64,000 nucleotides of DNA from Fulvimonas soli (GTDB taxonomy: Bacteria > Pseudomonadota > Gammaproteobacteria > Xanthomonadales > Rhodanobacteraceae). Every line of letters begins with the position of its first letter. The first letter of the stretch is position 1. Of this stretch, positions 48,657 through 63,624 are shown one piece after another. The stretch is from contig NZ_QGHC01000004.1 of NCBI RefSeq assembly GCF_003148905.1, forward strand, positions 186,001-250,000, in the 5' to 3' direction. The translations under genes were made by a program, and so were the position numbers. The notes under the pieces are model-generated. The model saw nothing but the letters and a program-made list of their open reading frames with translations. It searched no databases and had not been told where the DNA came from.

Positions 48657-48846
48657 ACGACGCCGCCCGCCCGGCCGGGTGAGCACGTCGTGGCCAAAGG
48701 TCTCGCCGGACCGCTGCGCACCGCCGGGCAGTGCGACCGGCCATCCGCGCCATGGGGCGAAACCCCAAGTCTGTTGACGCGGATTCCTCGCGGATGGAAG
48801 CGGCGCTTCCCGGGAGCGAGGATGGCTACTCCCCGATGACAACGGC
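48657..48846 (-). promoter_or_regulatory. yybP-ykoY (Mn2+) riboswitch
   Basis: The leader of the exchanger gene holds the conserved parts of this riboswitch in order on the minus strand: GGGGAGTAGCC (from 48834), an ATCCGCG/CGCGGAT stem enclosing GTCAACA (48778-48772) and a GGGG-TTTCG-CCCC hairpin, and GGCGAGACCTTTGGCC (48707-48692). The GGGGAGTAGC and GCGAGACC loops form the metal pocket in known members. Outer stem: CGTTGT (48844-48839) with ACGACG (48691-48686). The same ACGACG can instead pair with CGTCGT (48662-48657), which gives a plausible switch. Recognition rests on remembered consensus, not a covariance search. Confidence 0.88.
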
Positions 48847-56759: not shown

Positions 56760-56775
56760 GCCGCGGCGTCAGCCG
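56753..56775. terminator. palindrome spanning both stop codons
   Basis: CGGCTGA-GCCGCGGCG-TCAGCCG. The seven-base arms contain the TGA of recN on one strand and the TGA of the response-regulator gene on the other. It is a hairpin of the same design as those between the oxygenase and exchanger genes and, less fully, bamE and rnfH. Confidence 0.45.
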
Positions 56776-57407
56776 TGACCGTGCGGCAGCAGGCCGCGCT
56801 CGGTGGCCATGCGGTACAGGTCCAGCTCCGAGCCGGCGCCGAGCTTGCTCATCAGGCTGGCGCGGTGGATGTAGATGGTCTTCTGGCCCACGCCGAGCTC
56901 GGCCGCCACCTGCTTGGGCGCCCGCCCGGCCGCCAGCAGCAGGAACACCTCGCGCTCGCGCGCGGTGAGCCGGCTGACCGGGTCCAGCGCCTCGCTGGGC
57001 CGCTCGGCGCGGCGCTGGCGCAGGTCCGAGCTCAGGTAGTTCCCGCCCACCATCACCGCGCGCAGGCCGGCCACCAGTTCCTCCGGCGCCACGCCCTTGG
57101 TCACGTAGCCGCTGGCGCCGCGGCGCAGCGCCTCGGAGACGTAGGGTTCGCCGTCGTGCATGCTCAGCACCACGATGCGGGTGGAGGGCGAGACGCTGCG
57201 CAGGTGCTCGATCAGCGGCAGGCCACTGCCGTCCGGCAGGGACAGGTCCAGCGCCACCAGGTCCGGGCGGTGCTGGTTGATCACCTCAACCGCGTCGTCC
57301 GCGCAGCGGCACTCGGCGATCACCTCCAGGTCCGGCTCCATCTCGATCAGGCGCTTGAAGCCCTCGCGGACGATCGCGTGGTCATCGACGAGAACGATGC
57401 TGTACAT
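56769..57407 (-). CDS. NarL/UhpA-family response regulator
   Basis: A 212-residue two-component regulator. The receiver domain (1-120) has the acidic pair LVDDH (Asp8-Asp9), phospho-acceptor Asp54 in LVALDLSLPDG and the Lys in GYVTKG. The output domain is a LuxR-type HTH (about 148-205): LTAREREVFLLLAAGRAPKQ then VAAELGVGQKTIYIHRASLM. The ATG at 57407 is the natural receiver start. It is divergent from the MASE1-type histidine kinase gene with 64 bases between; they almost surely form a pair. Target genes and signal are not visible nearby. Confidence 0.92.
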   Translation of the reverse strand: MYSIVLVDDHAIVREGFKRLIEMEPDLEVIAECRCADDAVEVINQHRPDLVALDLSLPDGSGLPLIEHLRSVSPSTRIVVLSMHDGEPYVSEALRRGASGYVTKGVAPEELVAGLRAVMVGGNYLSSDLRQRRAERPSEALDPVSRLTAREREVFLLLAAGRAPKQVAAELGVGQKTIYIHRASLMSKLGAGSELDLYRMATERGLLPHGHG

Positions 57408-57471
57408 GCGCAAACCCTGCAGCCCCGTGCCGCCATCGTTGCGGCGAGCATCGCACATGTAACATCCCCGC

Positions 57472-59070
57472 ATGCAATCGAAAAGTCTCGCCCTGCCCGA
57501 CTCCGGCCCCCTGCTGGGCGCCGTCTACGTGCTGCTGTGGGCCGCGCTGCAGCCGACCGAGCAGCCGTACTGGGCGCTGCCGTACGGCCTGCGCTTCGGC
57601 GCCCTGCTGCTCACCCCGGTGCGGCACTGGCCCTGGCTGCTGGGGCTGGAGCTGGCGGCCACCGCGATCATCGACATGCACGCGGGCATGCCGCTGGGCT
57701 GGATGGAGTTCTTCGCCGGCGACCTGCCGACCCCGCTGGTGGTCGCCCTCGGCCTGGGCATCCTGCGCCGCGCCAACCTGCACGCCAGCCTGCGCGACCC
57801 CGAGGACGCCATCCGGCTGCTGCTCTCGGCCGTGCTGGTGGTGGCCGCCAGCACCGCCGTCGACGCCACGGTGCTCTCGCTGATCCACAACGCCACCGCC
57901 TCCAGCGCGATGCTGCAGATGCTCGGCCAGGAGATGCTGGGCGACTACCTGGGCATCCTCCTGGTGACGCCGCTGCTGGTCATGCTGCTGCGCGCGCGCC
58001 CGGGCCGGAAGACCCTGGCCGCGCTGGTGATGGACGGCATGCTGGTGATGCTGCCGGCCATCGCCATGCTGTTGATGCTGTCGCGCCACGCCGACCCGCA
58101 GCCGCAGTTCGCGCGGGTGCTGTCGCTGGCGCCGGTGCTGTTCTTCGCCTTCCGCCACGGCTGGCGCGGCGCCTGCCTGTCGATGCTGGTCTCCAGCGTG
58201 GCGATGGCGCTGGCCGACCGGCATGGCGGCGGCCAGCCGCCCGGCGCGGCCGGCTACCTGTTCCTCGCCGTCGCCGGCACCGGCGCGCTGATGCTCGGCT
58301 CGGCCAGCGACGCCCTGCGCCGCAGCAGCGAGCGCGTGGCCGAGCAGAACGCCTACCTGGGCGCGGTGAACCGCCGCCTGGACCAGCTGGCTCGGCAGCT
58401 GCGCCAGGCCGCCCGCGGCAACCTGCAGGCGGAGGAAAGCCAGCGCCGGCACATGGCCGCCGAGCTGCACGACGAGCTGGGGCAGAACATCACCGCGATC
58501 CAGACGCACGTGAAGCTGGCGCAGTCGCGCCTGCGCGAGGCCGGCCTGGAGGACATCAGCATCTCGATCAACACCATCCTCGGCCACATGCGCCGCGCCC
58601 TGCACCGCCTGCTGGACGACCTGCGGCCCGCGGTGCTCGACGAGTTCGGCCTGCTGCGCGCGCTGGACGAGGGCCCGATCCGCGACCTGCTCAACACCGC
58701 CGGCATCGACTACGTCACCGAGCTGCACGGCGACCCGCGCCTGCTCGACGAGGACACCCGCACCGCGATCTACCGCCTGGTGCAGGAAAGCGCCACCAAC
58801 GCGGTCAAGCACGCCCAGGCCAGCGAGTTCCGCCTGCGCCTGCGCATCGGCGAGCGCCACGGCACGGCGCTGGCATTGCTGGACATCCGCGACGACGGCG
58901 TGGGCCTGCCCGACCGCCTGCCCCGCGGCGGCCGCGGCCTGCAGGGCATGCGCGACCGGGTCACCTCGCTGGGCGGGCTGTTCCGGCTGCGCCCCGACCG
59001 CCAGGGCGTGCACCTGCGCATCCTGCTGCGCAGCAGCAATGCCAGTACGGATATCGGCCGGCTGGCATAG
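57472..59070 (+). CDS. MASE1-type sensor histidine kinase (UhpB-like)
   Basis: A 532-residue membrane histidine kinase. Residues 1-290 hold about eight hydrophobic segments resembling the MASE1 sensor domain. A short coiled coil leads to a HisKA_3 dimerisation helix with the phospho-acceptor His333 in MAAELHDELGQNITAIQTHV, then a HATPase domain with VQESATNAVKHA (N box) and DIRDDGVGLPDRLPRGGRGL (G boxes). This class pairs with NarL-type regulators, as the divergent neighbour is. The signal is unknown. The pair lies between recN and fur, where related genomes often have no such genes, so it may be a lineage-specific insertion. Confidence 0.9.
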   Translation: MQSKSLALPDSGPLLGAVYVLLWAALQPTEQPYWALPYGLRFGALLLTPVRHWPWLLGLELAATAIIDMHAGMPLGWMEFFAGDLPTPLVVALGLGILRRANLHASLRDPEDAIRLLLSAVLVVAASTAVDATVLSLIHNATASSAMLQMLGQEMLGDYLGILLVTPLLVMLLRARPGRKTLAALVMDGMLVMLPAIAMLLMLSRHADPQPQFARVLSLAPVLFFAFRHGWRGACLSMLVSSVAMALADRHGGGQPPGAAGYLFLAVAGTGALMLGSASDALRRSSERVAEQNAYLGAVNRRLDQLARQLRQAARGNLQAEESQRRHMAAELHDELGQNITAIQTHVKLAQSRLREAGLEDISISINTILGHMRRALHRLLDDLRPAVLDEFGLLRALDEGPIRDLLNTAGIDYVTELHGDPRLLDEDTRTAIYRLVQESATNAVKHAQASEFRLRLRIGERHGTALALLDIRDDGVGLPDRLPRGGRGLQGMRDRVTSLGGLFRLRPDRQGVHLRILLRSSNASTDIGRLA

Positions 59071-59112
59071 GAATTTTTCCAATACCACCCCTGTGAAAGC
59101 CCCGTTAGCATC

Positions 59113-59306
59113 CTCCCATCGATGTGGGGGAGCCATCACCGCAAGGTGATGAGCCAGGTCCGCCGTGGGGACGGTGGACCTGAAGGACGGCAGGAAGCCG
59201 TTCCACCGGCCCTCGACGCAAGGGGCAGCGAGCAATTCGCCCAGCCGAAGCGTCGTGGCAACCGGGTCAGCCGTGGGTGGACAGGAGTCCTCCCGCGGCT
59301 TTTTTC
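59113..59306 (+). ncRNA. structured RNA of unknown family with terminator
   Basis: The 288-base gap between the kinase gene and fur folds into ordered hairpins on the plus strand: CTCCC/GGGAG at 59113; CATCACC-GCAA-GGTGATG (59134-59151, GNRA loop); an 11-bp AGGTCCGCCGT-GGGG-ACGGTGGACCT (59156-59181); GGACGGC/GCCGTTCC (59185-59204); and a long-range CGACGC/GCGTCG (59214-59219 with 59250-59255) enclosing GCGA/TCGC. It ends in an excellent intrinsic terminator: AGCCGTGGGTGGAC-AGGA-GTCCTCCCGCGGCT then TTTTTC (59269-59306). No plus-strand gene follows until bamE, so it is not a simple leader. It resembles no RNA family I can name. The promoter is not clear; it may be processed from the kinase mRNA. 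Confidence 0.6.
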
Positions 59307-59358
59307 TTTCCGGGCCCGATCCCGCGCCGCTGGCGGAGCGCCCCGCCCGCGCGGCCGG

Positions 59359-59763
59359 CTACTTGCGCTTGGGCCGCACGTAGAGCACCAGGCTGTGGTC
59401 CTCGATCACGTAGCCGTGGCGCGCGGCGATCTCCTGCTGCAGGCGCTCGATCTCCTCGCTGACGAACTCGATCACCTTTCCGCTGTCCACATCGATCATG
59501 TGGTCGTGGTGCTTGCCCCGATCGAGTTCGTATACGGCCTGGCCGCCCTCGAAGTTGTGCTTGACCAGGATGCCGGCCGCCTCGAACTGGGTCAGCACGC
59601 GGTACACGGTGGCCAGCCCGATGTCCTCCTGGCTCGCGAGCAGGCGCTTGTAGACGTCCTCGGCGGTGAGGTGGCGAACCTCCTCGAAGATCTGCAGGAT
59701 GCGCATGCGCGGATGGGTGACCTTGAGGCCGGCCCGGCGCAGTTCTTGGGTTTCCTGTTCCAT
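59359..59763 (-). CDS. fur: ferric uptake regulator Fur
   Basis: Iron-sensing repressor. The 134-residue product has the winged helix (LRRAGLKVTHPRMRILQIFE, DIGLATVYRVLTQFEAAGIL) and the metal-binding dimer domain with KHHDHMIDVDSGKVIEF, which keeps the HHDH ligands. The CxxC structural zinc site of E. coli Fur is absent (IDVDS in place of ICLDC), as in Pseudomonas-type Fur. The ATG at 59763 is preferred over the open frame to 59877. It is divergent from bamE, the conserved fur/bamE arrangement. Confidence 0.96.
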   Translation of the reverse strand: MEQETQELRRAGLKVTHPRMRILQIFEEVRHLTAEDVYKRLLASQEDIGLATVYRVLTQFEAAGILVKHNFEGGQAVYELDRGKHHDHMIDVDSGKVIEFVSEEIERLQQEIAARHGYVIEDHSLVLYVRPKRK

Positions 59764-59842
59764 GAGCTCACTCCCCGCACGACGGCGCTGCCAAGCGCTT
59801 AGTGTATCATCCGACACCTTCACGATCCGGACGCCAACACGC

Positions 59843-60286
59843 ATGCAAAAGCTGATCCGCACGCTGGGTTCCGCCACGCTGGCCTTCGCGCTGGCCGGCT
59901 GCCACCTGGTCTATGTTCCCGACGTGCACCAGGGCAATCTGATGGACAAGAAGGCCGTGGACCAGCTCAAGCCGGGCATGACCAAGCGCCAGGTGCTGGT
60001 GCTGCTGGGCTCGCCCTCGGTCGCCACGCCGTTCGACCAGGACCGCTGGGACTACGTCTCCACCCAGCAGCATCGCGGCGGCCCGATCCAGATCCGCACC
60101 TTCAGCCTCACCTTCAACAACGACACCCTGGTGCGCACCGAGGGCGACTTCTTCGCGCAGGACCCGGAGCAGCTGCTCAAGGTCAGCCAGAAGTACCGCG
60201 CCAACTACCCGGTGGACGAGACCAAGGGCGACAAGAGCACCTCCGGCAACGACTCCGGCGGCGACAGCGGGGACGGCAAGCCCTGA
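59843..60286 (+). CDS. bamE: outer membrane protein assembly factor BamE
   Basis: Lipoprotein of the BAM complex that inserts beta-barrels in the outer membrane. The 147-residue product has a lipoprotein signal (MQKLIRTLGSATLAFALAGC, lipidated Cys20), the conserved YVPDVHQGN segment just after, and the SmpA/OmlA core KPGMTKRQVLVLLGSPSVAT with RWDYVSTQQ. The Gly/Ser/Asp-rich tail after residue 120 is longer than in E. coli. It is divergent from fur and convergent with rnfH, eight bases apart. Confidence 0.95.
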   Translation: MQKLIRTLGSATLAFALAGCHLVYVPDVHQGNLMDKKAVDQLKPGMTKRQVLVLLGSPSVATPFDQDRWDYVSTQQHRGGPIQIRTFSLTFNNDTLVRTEGDFFAQDPEQLLKVSQKYRANYPVDETKGDKSTSGNDSGGDSGDGKP

Positions 60287-61613: not shown

Positions 61614-61966
<353 letters not shown>

Positions 61967-61970
61967 GTTC

Positions 61971-62008
61971 CATCGACAGAATAGCACTAACCTGCTGTTC
62001 TGTCGATG
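61971..62008. other. 38-base inverted repeat at the island edge
   Basis: CATCGACAGAA-T-AGCA-CTAACC-TGCT-G-TTCTGTCGATG: sixteen positions per arm with only a T/G opposite each other and a six-base loop. It lies five bases after ssrA. It may be a transcript end for pre-tmRNA, or an accessory site for the recombinase or excisionase. Confidence 0.8.
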
Positions 62009-62022
62009 ATTTTGGTGCTTTT

Positions 62023-62049
62023 GGTCGATGGCAAATCGACCCCTTTTTT
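62023..62049 (+). terminator. intrinsic terminator between ssrA and the integrase
   Basis: GGTCGAT-GGCAA-ATCGACC, then CC and TTTTTT. A perfect seven-base-pair stem with a T run. It would stop transcription from the ssrA promoter before the integrase gene. Confidence 0.85.
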
Positions 62050-62060
62050 GGTTCCAGACA

Positions 62061-62082
62061 GGTATCAAAAAAGGTATCAAAA
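62061..62082 (+). repeat. tandem GGTATCAAAA repeat before the integrase start
   Basis: GGTATCAAAA occurs at 62061-62070 and again at 62073-62082, 12 bases apart, ending at the integrase GTG. The AAGG inside serves as the ribosome-binding site. The two copies may also be arm-type binding sites for the recombinase or an autorepressor. Confidence 0.6.
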
Positions 62083-63624
62083 GTGCCCAAGCCGCTCCTG
62101 TTGCGCCGCCCGTCGGGGTTCTACGTCCGTTTCTACGTGCCCGCCCGTTGGCGGGCCTCCCTGGGCCTGGGGCGCTACCTGGTGCGCAGCCTGGCCGGCT
62201 TCGATGCCGACAGTGCAAGGCTGGAAGCCGCTCGCCTCGGCTATGCTCTGGGCCAGTGGTTCAGTGCAGCGAAACAGGGGGCGGGCGTGTCGTTCACGAA
62301 AAGCAAGGATGAGCTGGACGACTACCTGCGCAGCCTTCGGCGTCTGGAAGTGACCACGCCTGAGGGTTACCACTTCAAGACAGACGGCAGCGAACACGAA
62401 GCCCGCGAACTGCGCCACATGCTGGCCGATCTACGCGCCAATCGCGCTGCCCAAAGTTACGCGGTTGCACCACCGCCCCCAGCACCGGAATCATCTAAAC
62501 CGCTGCTGTCCGAACGCATCGATTTGTTCCTCACCCAGTTCAAGGCAAGGAAGGTCTCCGCCGGCAACGTGCTGGACACGGCCTACACGTTGCGCTTGCT
62601 GTTGGGCTTGGTCGGTGACAAACCGCTGGCCGAGGTGGCCGCGCCTGACATGGACATCCTCATGGATGCCTTGGCGAACCTGCCACCCAATGCCAGCAAA
62701 GATCGTGTGTTGCGGGATTTGTCCCCGCAAGAAGTCATCGCCAAGGCCAAACGCGAAGGCATCGAACCGATTGCGTTTCGGACACGGGAGAAACATCTGG
62801 ATCGCCTGCGGGCCTTCTTCAACTGGGCGATTGAGCGCGAAGACATCAAGCGCAACCCGGCGGCATCGCTTCATTTCCTCAGCCGAGAGCAAGAGGAAAC
62901 CCGCGATCGTCGTGCGTTCACCCCCGAAGAACTGGCCATCATCTTCGATCCCGACCGCCGTGCCGAACACTGCACCACGCCGGCTCAGTGGTGGTGCCCG
63001 CTGGTGGCTTTGTTCACTGGCGCGCGCGTGGCTGAGGTGGCTTTGCTGCGGGTGAGTGACCTGGTGCAGGTTGATGGCGCTTACGGCTTTCAGTTTCACT
63101 GGAAGGTCAAGAACGCCAACTCCCGGCGGTTCGTGCCACTCCACATTGAGTTGCTGCGCGTCGGTATCACCGAATACCGGCGTTTGGTGGAACAAGCGCT
63201 TGGCCCAGAAGCGCCACTGTTTCCATCACTGTCCGCCGATCCCGTGGACGCCCTGGGCGATTGGTTCAATCGCACCTACCTGCGCAAGGTGTGTGGCCTG
63301 ACGGATCCCAAACTGGTCTATTACTGCTTCCGGCATACCTTCGCCACGCTGGCCGACCGGGCGGGCATCATCGACGCGCGCATCGCCGAAATCACCGGCC
63401 ACAGCGCACGCGGTTCCATCCTGCGCTGGCACTACATCGACCCCGGCACGGTGCGGCAGAAGTGTGAGACCCTGCGGGCTGTGCAGCCCTCCATGCCTCC
63501 ATCCGCGCATTATCCCAAGGCGCTGTTTGTGGATTACTTGAACACCTATCCCAAGGCGTTGAAGCGGGCGCGGTCGATGGCGGCCAAGCGTGTGGCGAAG
63601 AAACAGAAACCCGCCAAGGGATGA
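62083..63624 (+). CDS. int: tyrosine recombinase (integrase)
   Basis: A 513-residue site-specific recombinase with an N-terminal DUF6538-like arm domain (VPKPLLLRRPSGFYVRFYVP), a SAM-like core-binding region (about 155-260), and the catalytic domain from about 290. Catalytic features: Arg in LFTGARVAEVALL, Lys in FHWKVKNANSRRFVPLH, the RHTF box in YYCFRHTFATLADRAG, ITGHSARGSILRWHYIDP with the nucleophilic Tyr. The first His of HxxR is Tyr here (YCFR). The GTG at 62083 has AAGG upstream; an in-frame open stretch reaches back through ssrA but cannot be coding. Codon use is less GC3-biased than the host genes. Confidence 0.92.
   Translation: MPKPLLLRRPSGFYVRFYVPARWRASLGLGRYLVRSLAGFDADSARLEAARLGYALGQWFSAAKQGAGVSFTKSKDELDDYLRSLRRLEVTTPEGYHFKTDGSEHEARELRHMLADLRANRAAQSYAVAPPPPAPESSKPLLSERIDLFLTQFKARKVSAGNVLDTAYTLRLLLGLVGDKPLAEVAAPDMDILMDALANLPPNASKDRVLRDLSPQEVIAKAKREGIEPIAFRTREKHLDRLRAFFNWAIEREDIKRNPAASLHFLSREQEETRDRRAFTPEELAIIFDPDRRAEHCTTPAQWWCPLVALFTGARVAEVALLRVSDLVQVDGAYGFQFHWKVKNANSRRFVPLHIELLRVGITEYRRLVEQALGPEAPLFPSLSADPVDALGDWFNRTYLRKVCGLTDPKLVYYCFRHTFATLADRAGIIDARIAEITGHSARGSILRWHYIDPGTVRQKCETLRAVQPSMPPSAHYPKALFVDYLNTYPKALKRARSMAAKRVAKKQKPAKG

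Follow-up and report, generated by a model that had tools for sequence, protein, structure and literature searches.

The structured RNA of about 190 nt that lies between a histidine kinase gene and fur in the genome of Fulvimonas soli raises the question of what such a molecule does and what switches it on (the entire stretch of 64,000 nucleotides that was analyzed is hereinafter called the window). In Xanthomonadales, RsmA/CsrA acts as a global regulator; in Xanthomonas no rsmB/csrB homologue has been found, and RsmA has been said to be controlled by a mechanism as yet undiscovered (PMC3937308, PMC7694677). The locus described here, which belongs to the sister family Rhodanobacteraceae, comprises a complete candidate circuit, namely a sensor, a regulator, a DNA site and an RNA, all within 2.6 kb, with one csrA gene located elsewhere. 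The features of this locus, the modeled RNA fold and analogy with known systems together suggest that the RNA is probably a stand-alone sRNA that is transcribed from its own promoter, is activated by the response regulator and sequesters RsmA/CsrA. If so, the RNA would be CsrB-like, would show no detectable relationship to any known family and would be controlled by a non-Gac regulator, and the conserved regulon of that response regulator may consist of one RNA gene, so that signal, site and output would all be directly testable.

Structure and conservation of the RNA

The predicted fold of the region 59100-59320 has an energy of -122.9 kcal/mol, compared with -93.6 ± 5.2 kcal/mol for 200 dinucleotide shuffles (z = -5.63), none of which was as stable as the native fold. 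The following parts can be delineated, alignment A1 being an alignment of 63 sequences:

59118-59305, plus strand: candidate sRNA gene, ~190 nt, structured, ending in an intrinsic terminator
59118-59133, plus strand: 5′ element AUCGAUGUGGGGGAGC, 16 nt, invariant in alignment A1; GGA at 59129-59131
59132-59154, plus strand: hairpin 1 of the predicted fold, with a GCAA (GNRA-type) loop; two-sided changes in 6 of 7 pairs
59155-59182, plus strand: hairpin 2, with a perfect 12-bp stem and the invariant loop region CGUGGGGACG; GGA at 59169-59171; two-sided changes in 8 of 11 pairs
59185-59203, plus strand: hairpin 3, with the loop AGGAA (CAGGAU in most relatives); GGA at 59193-59195; two-sided changes in 5 of 7 pairs
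59206-59265, plus strand: P4, a long-range stem of variable sequence with an apical GCGAGCAAUUCGC hairpin
59269-59305, plus strand: intrinsic terminator (stem-loop 59269-59300) with CAGGAG in the loop and a T6 tail; GGA at 59284-59286; two-sided changes in 6 of 10 pairs

An earlier note on this DNA had described ordered stems, a GNRA loop, a long-range pairing and a terminator, all of which are present in the sequence; the second perfect stem, given there as 11 bp, is indeed perfect but is 12 bp long (59155-59182), and the RNA, which had been placed at 59113-59306, is found there with an inferred 5′ end at about 59118 rather than at 59113. The terminator stem-loop is followed by the T run and then by a C. 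A scan for consensus promoters and terminators yielded nothing at the RNA locus and missed this terminator, probably owing to the mismatch that interrupts its stem. In the minimum-energy folds of single sequences, the bridging stem of P4 has at least 8 pairs in 56 of the 69 relatives.

The fold is well supported by comparative analysis. Two-sided changes are found in 27 of the 40 pairs of the five named helices of alignment A1, a count that takes in only the apical hairpin of the poorly aligned P4, and 97.9% of the alignment cells in these helices are paired, compared with 35-51% for slid controls. These observations bear on the possibility that the locus encodes a short protein, given that a 226-codon open reading frame begins in the window at the AUG at 59122 (AUGUGGGGGAGC...). 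Such a product is extremely improbable: the length of the RNA changes in steps that are not divisible by three, compensatory changes keep the stems, and the ATG is missing in the copies from genera g2, g12 and g25. The length changes and the loss of the ATG led to the rejection of this candidate.

A BLASTN search with the RNA yielded matches in 110 of 197 genomes of the family, a few of which are short and probably due to chance (e.g., those in two genomes of genus g24), and a covariance model finds the RNA family-wide, including diverged copies in g12 and g7. A pattern scan of named genomes located it in Dyella, Rhodanobacter, Luteibacter, Frateuria and Fulvimonas, all members of Rhodanobacteraceae. 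Covariance searches of the other families of the order and of 369 genomes across the class produced no credible match, two marginal 18-bit matches within the order being taken as chance, and no match was found in the plasmid records searched. The gene order kinase - RNA - fur - bamE is common to all 70 loci dissected. A lack of conservation beyond close strains, which the earlier note had named as the observation that would count against its proposal, is thus not what is seen, as the RNA spans some 20 genera. In one relative (L058), the apical part of P4 has been lost and the RNA is reduced to 159 nt, with the GGA loops retained.

The earlier note saw no resemblance to 6S, RNase P, SRP RNA or a riboswitch class that it recognized. 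With Rfam 15, the locus has no match at the gathering thresholds and the models of CsrB, CsrC and RsmX/Y/Z are unmatched; relaxing the E-value to 10 brings up nothing but a match to Methylosinus-1 on the minus strand, attributable to chance. Searches of the available literature turned up no description of this RNA. The proposal that it is an undescribed small regulatory RNA is accordingly supported, for an RNA of the trans-acting type.

The promoter box and the adjacent two-component system

Upstream of the RNA and beyond it lie the following features:

56769-57473, minus strand: gene for a NarL/FixJ (LuxR-type) response regulator (Pfam Response_reg and GerE), divergent from the kinase gene
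57472-59070, plus strand: gene for a UhpB-like MASE1 - HisKA_3 - HATPase_c histidine kinase (Pfam)
59068-59084, plus strand: promoter box TAGGAATTTTTCCAATA (consensus TAGGAAWTTTTCCRATA, a 17-bp dyad), a putative response-regulator site, present upstream of all 69 aligned loci
59106-59111, plus strand: -10-like hexamer TAGCAT within a conserved CGTTASSATC, kept across the loci
59359-59766, minus strand: fur (Pfam FUR), a syntenic neighbor outside the module

The promoter at 59068-59112 does not figure in the earlier note. Transcription would start at about 59118, with the center of the box at about -42. The start of the box precedes AUCGAUG by 49-51 bp in 68 of the 68 scored loci; the 69th carries a variant box, TAGGAATTATTCCGATA, that was read by eye. 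The kinase stop is 48 bp upstream of the RNA on the same strand, so that the kinase transcript may read into it, and the RNA could conceivably have no function of its own, being just a cis element or the structured terminator region at the 3′ end of the kinase mRNA. This is very unlikely, given that the spacing of the box and the -10 element is fixed relative to the RNA and variable relative to the kinase stop (-29 to +88 bp), and that hairpins 1-3 with their GGA loops far exceed a terminator. Control in cis is also unlikely because no plus-strand gene follows closely, as the earlier note had remarked: fur is encoded on the minus strand, and the first plus-strand gene to follow is bamE, with its start at 59843. 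In the window, the TAG stop codon of the kinase (59068-59070) constitutes the first three bases of the box, and this arrangement recurs in about 30 of the 69 loci.

Without mismatches, the box is found in 50 genomes, with exactly one copy in each; all of these are from Rhodanobacteraceae, and an exact match was found in none of about 220 sampled genomes of other families. When one mismatch is allowed, the box is matched 76 times, in 74 of the 117 genomes of the family, compared with a single match for the reversed control; a few of the one-mismatch matches lie elsewhere (G008 C41, G067 C13, G035 and G055). A box that is nearly single-copy per genome is what would be expected if the regulator had a single dedicated target.

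The best NCBIfam models for the response regulator (MctR, UhpA, NarL and GacA) all score below their cut-offs, and the kinase reaches 181 bits against the UhpB model, the cut-off of which is 408. The pair resembles UhpB/UhpA in combining a MASE1-type membrane domain with HisKA_3 and in the UhpA-like regulator, but differs in that both proteins fall below the equivalog cut-offs and in that the only conserved box is located at the sRNA gene. Searches with the box exposed very diverged modules in genera g2, g7, g12 and g25, in which kinase, regulator, box and a diverged RNA are found together beside fur; the kinases of these copies are 49-61% identical, and the regulators of divergent genera are 73-89% identical over the captured parts.

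Kinase, regulator, box and RNA occur either all together or not at all: 20 of the 26 genera possess the unit and 6 lack it. Representatives of the RNA-free genera (g5, g8, g14, g16, g24 and g26), with one or two genomes of each inspected at the fur locus, have no kinase homologue next to fur, and in g8, g24 and g26 (four genomes) recN directly adjoins fur. The suggested connection of the RNA with the adjacent two-component system is therefore strong, resting on the single-copy promoter box and on strict co-inheritance. The other suggestion, a link to iron, finds no support, given that the fur-bamE synteny is observed also in RNA-free genera; a strict search for Fur boxes within the window found none.

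GGA loops and the candidate link to RsmA/CsrA

The RNA resembles CsrB and CsrC of E. coli and RsmX/Y/Z of Pseudomonas in being an intergenic stand-alone sRNA with multiple GGA-loop hairpins and an intrinsic terminator, as well as in the CAGGA(U/A/C)G-type loops, the palindromic upstream box and the LuxR-type regulator as the putative activator. The loop repeats of CsrB read CAGGA(U/A/C)G and the SELEX site is RUACARGGAUGU (PMC7652899), and the GGA pattern in the loops of the RNA looks like that of a CsrA/RsmA site. In contrast to these RNAs, it has no covariance-model similarity to them, is single-copy and carries invariant UGGGG motifs; CsrB has 22 GGAs, whereas this RNA has three loop GGAs and one in the 5′ region.

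The commonest trinucleotide in the predicted hairpin loops is GGA, which is present in 63 of 129 loops, closing pair included, of 21 representatives (15 main-clade genera and six diverged copies), compared with 13.3 ± 3.4 (maximum 22) in 60 dinucleotide-shuffle sets, in a test that treats related sequences as independent. Sequestration of RsmA requires several GGA motifs (PMC2375449), and the RNA carries several, most of them in hairpin loops. The GGA of hairpin 3 is unpaired with a probability near 1 in all 55 scored sequences, and the same holds for the GGA of the terminator loop in 69 of 69. These motifs persist despite divergence of the flanks: hairpin 3 in g4 has CAAGGAU; the terminator loops of g12 keep GGA (ACAAGGAGU, ACAUGGAGU and ACAGGAGU); g25 retains it in the terminator (UCACGGAUCA) and elsewhere (GCAGGAUGC and UCAGGAUGA); and in genus g7 the only predicted loop GGA is that of hairpin 2.

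Several observations temper this picture. In the RNA of the window, only two GGAs are fully loop-borne, those of hairpin 3 and the terminator; for hairpin 2 the prediction is a GGGG tetraloop with a closing U-A pair, and the GGA of the 5′ region is partly paired. G-rich RNA commonly contains GGA, and in single sequences the total count of GGA alone is only mildly above that of the shuffles, which counts against reading this RNA as an RsmA/CsrA sponge. Conservation is most rigid in the G-runs rather than in GGA itself. The genome encodes one CsrA/RsmA (PF02599, 91.5 bits), with L4 and R44.

The analysis shows the structure of the RNA and its conservation, the promoter box and its uniqueness in the genome, the co-inheritance with the two-component pair, the enrichment and persistence of GGA in loops, and the presence of CsrA. 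That the RNA is transcribed, that the regulator binds the box and that RsmA binds the RNA are inferred, as are the signal and the targets, along the following lines. Upon stimulation of the MASE1 kinase, the neighboring response regulator would bind the single-copy box at about -42 and activate transcription of the ~190-nt RNA from its own promoter. The loop GGAs of hairpin 2, hairpin 3 and the terminator, together with the fourth GGA close to the 5′ end, would then allow the RNA to bind and sequester RsmA/CsrA, freeing the RsmA-controlled mRNAs.

The putative driver of this circuit differs from that of the GacS/GacA-driven RNAs: here it is the adjacent MASE1/UhpB-like pair with the box TAGGAAWTTTTCCRATA, and kinase, regulator and RNA are contiguous. 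The adjacent regulator scores 134-135 bits against the GacA/UvrY equivalog, the cut-off of which is 280. The GacA palindromic box is TGTAAGN6CTTACA, and what is conserved upstream of the RNA is TAGGAAWTTTTCCRATA instead. Overall, the RNA looks CsrB/RsmZ-like in its design, matches none of the CsrB and RsmX/Y/Z sequence families, and has a putative two-component driver of a different kind. A regulator closer to GacA/UvrY is encoded outside the window (G000:C4:149861-150490; 218.7 bits, cut-off 280), and comparable matches were obtained in each of the 11 genomes tested, two of which are from a sister family. Given this closer GacA-like regulator, the main route to RsmA could run through another RNA.

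Within the same order, RsmU (sRX061) of Xanthomonas campestris is likewise an RsmA-binding sRNA with 3-4 GGA motifs (PMC7694677), but it is processed from the comEA 3′ UTR, at another locus, and no two-component link has been described for it. Identity of the RNA with RsmU was rejected on account of the different locus and origin.

Possible RNA partners and neighboring elements

The conserved G-runs leave room for a different function, as a base-pairing RNA or sponge. The small RNA sX13 (RF02232), like the RNA described here, is a conserved structured sRNA of the order and occurs in the same genomes; its loops are C-rich and its gene is situated downstream of polA, whereas the present RNA has G-rich loops, and hence could be a partner, not a relative. 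The RNA itself has no RF02232 match, the sX13 of this genome being a separate gene downstream of polA (L259:2768-2887, i.e., G000:C7:74712-74831; 33.1 bits, below the Rfam gathering threshold). Although sX13 has been described as exclusive to Xanthomonadaceae (PMC3771888), matches were found here in 26 of 26 Rhodanobacteraceae genera. Some of the homologues (L295, L298 and L303) have acquired or kept a fourth hairpin, which bears an additional C-rich loop, and in some genomes (G102:C4 and G055:C69) there are two neighboring copies.

In Xanthomonas, sX13 recognizes its targets through C-rich loops, with 4G motifs as the known determinant (PMC3771888). Such 4G motifs are present in the 5′ element and the hairpin-2 loop of the RNA described here. 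The G-runs of the RNA might accordingly form kissing contacts with these loops and relieve the repression of 4G-motif mRNAs, an activity that may coexist with RsmA binding; this seems unlikely, as does the specific assignment of the pairing sites to the 5′ GUGGGGGAG and the hairpin-2 loop GUGGGGA, facing CUCCCC-type loops. The predicted duplexes with the sX13 of the same genome have energies of -12.9 to -15.2 kcal/mol for the 5′ element and of -9.6 to -11.0 kcal/mol for the hairpin-2 loop, each in 14 of 14 genomes, compared with only -0.2 to -5.8 kcal/mol for loops without GGA, and the G-runs are kept in almost every diverged copy, also in g25 copies that have lost the adjacent A. However, any C-run pairs with any G-run, sX13 occurs also where the module is absent, and the longer match of GGGGGAG with CUCCCCC in loop 3 of sX13 is not kept in several module-bearing genomes (GCGCCCCC, GCACCCCC and UUCCCCC). 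Exact 7-mer co-variation between sX13 loop 3 and the 5′ element is not maintained between lineages. Furthermore, pairing with sX13 leaves the CAGGA loops and the retention of GGA unexplained. A combined scheme, in which the RNA couples two networks under a dedicated single-target two-component system by titrating RsmA/CsrA with its GGA loops and sX13 with its G-run loops, is rather unlikely.

The invariance of the 5′ element across 63 sequences, a feature often seen in the seeds of trans-acting sRNAs, also brings to mind a classical trans-acting sRNA in which AUCGAUGUGGGGGAGC serves as the seed for specific mRNAs. In 12 of 14 genomes, however, the RNA gene is the sole site of the exact 12-mer complement, and in the other two there are two extra matches. 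An antisense 5′ seed was rejected because no other site with this complement is conserved, and with shorter seeds left possible by the 12-mer test, we consider such a function quite unlikely. Sequestration of RsmA/CsrA by a stand-alone RNA thus continues to be the reading that we favor.

Two further features of the window lie outside the module. A tmRNA gene (61614-61965) is followed by an integrase-like open reading frame (61933-63624; Phage_integrase, 20 bits, below the cut-off of 27.1), and their proximity suggests an element integrated at ssrA. A manganese (yybP-ykoY) riboswitch is located at 48673-48846 on the minus strand (59.6 bits).
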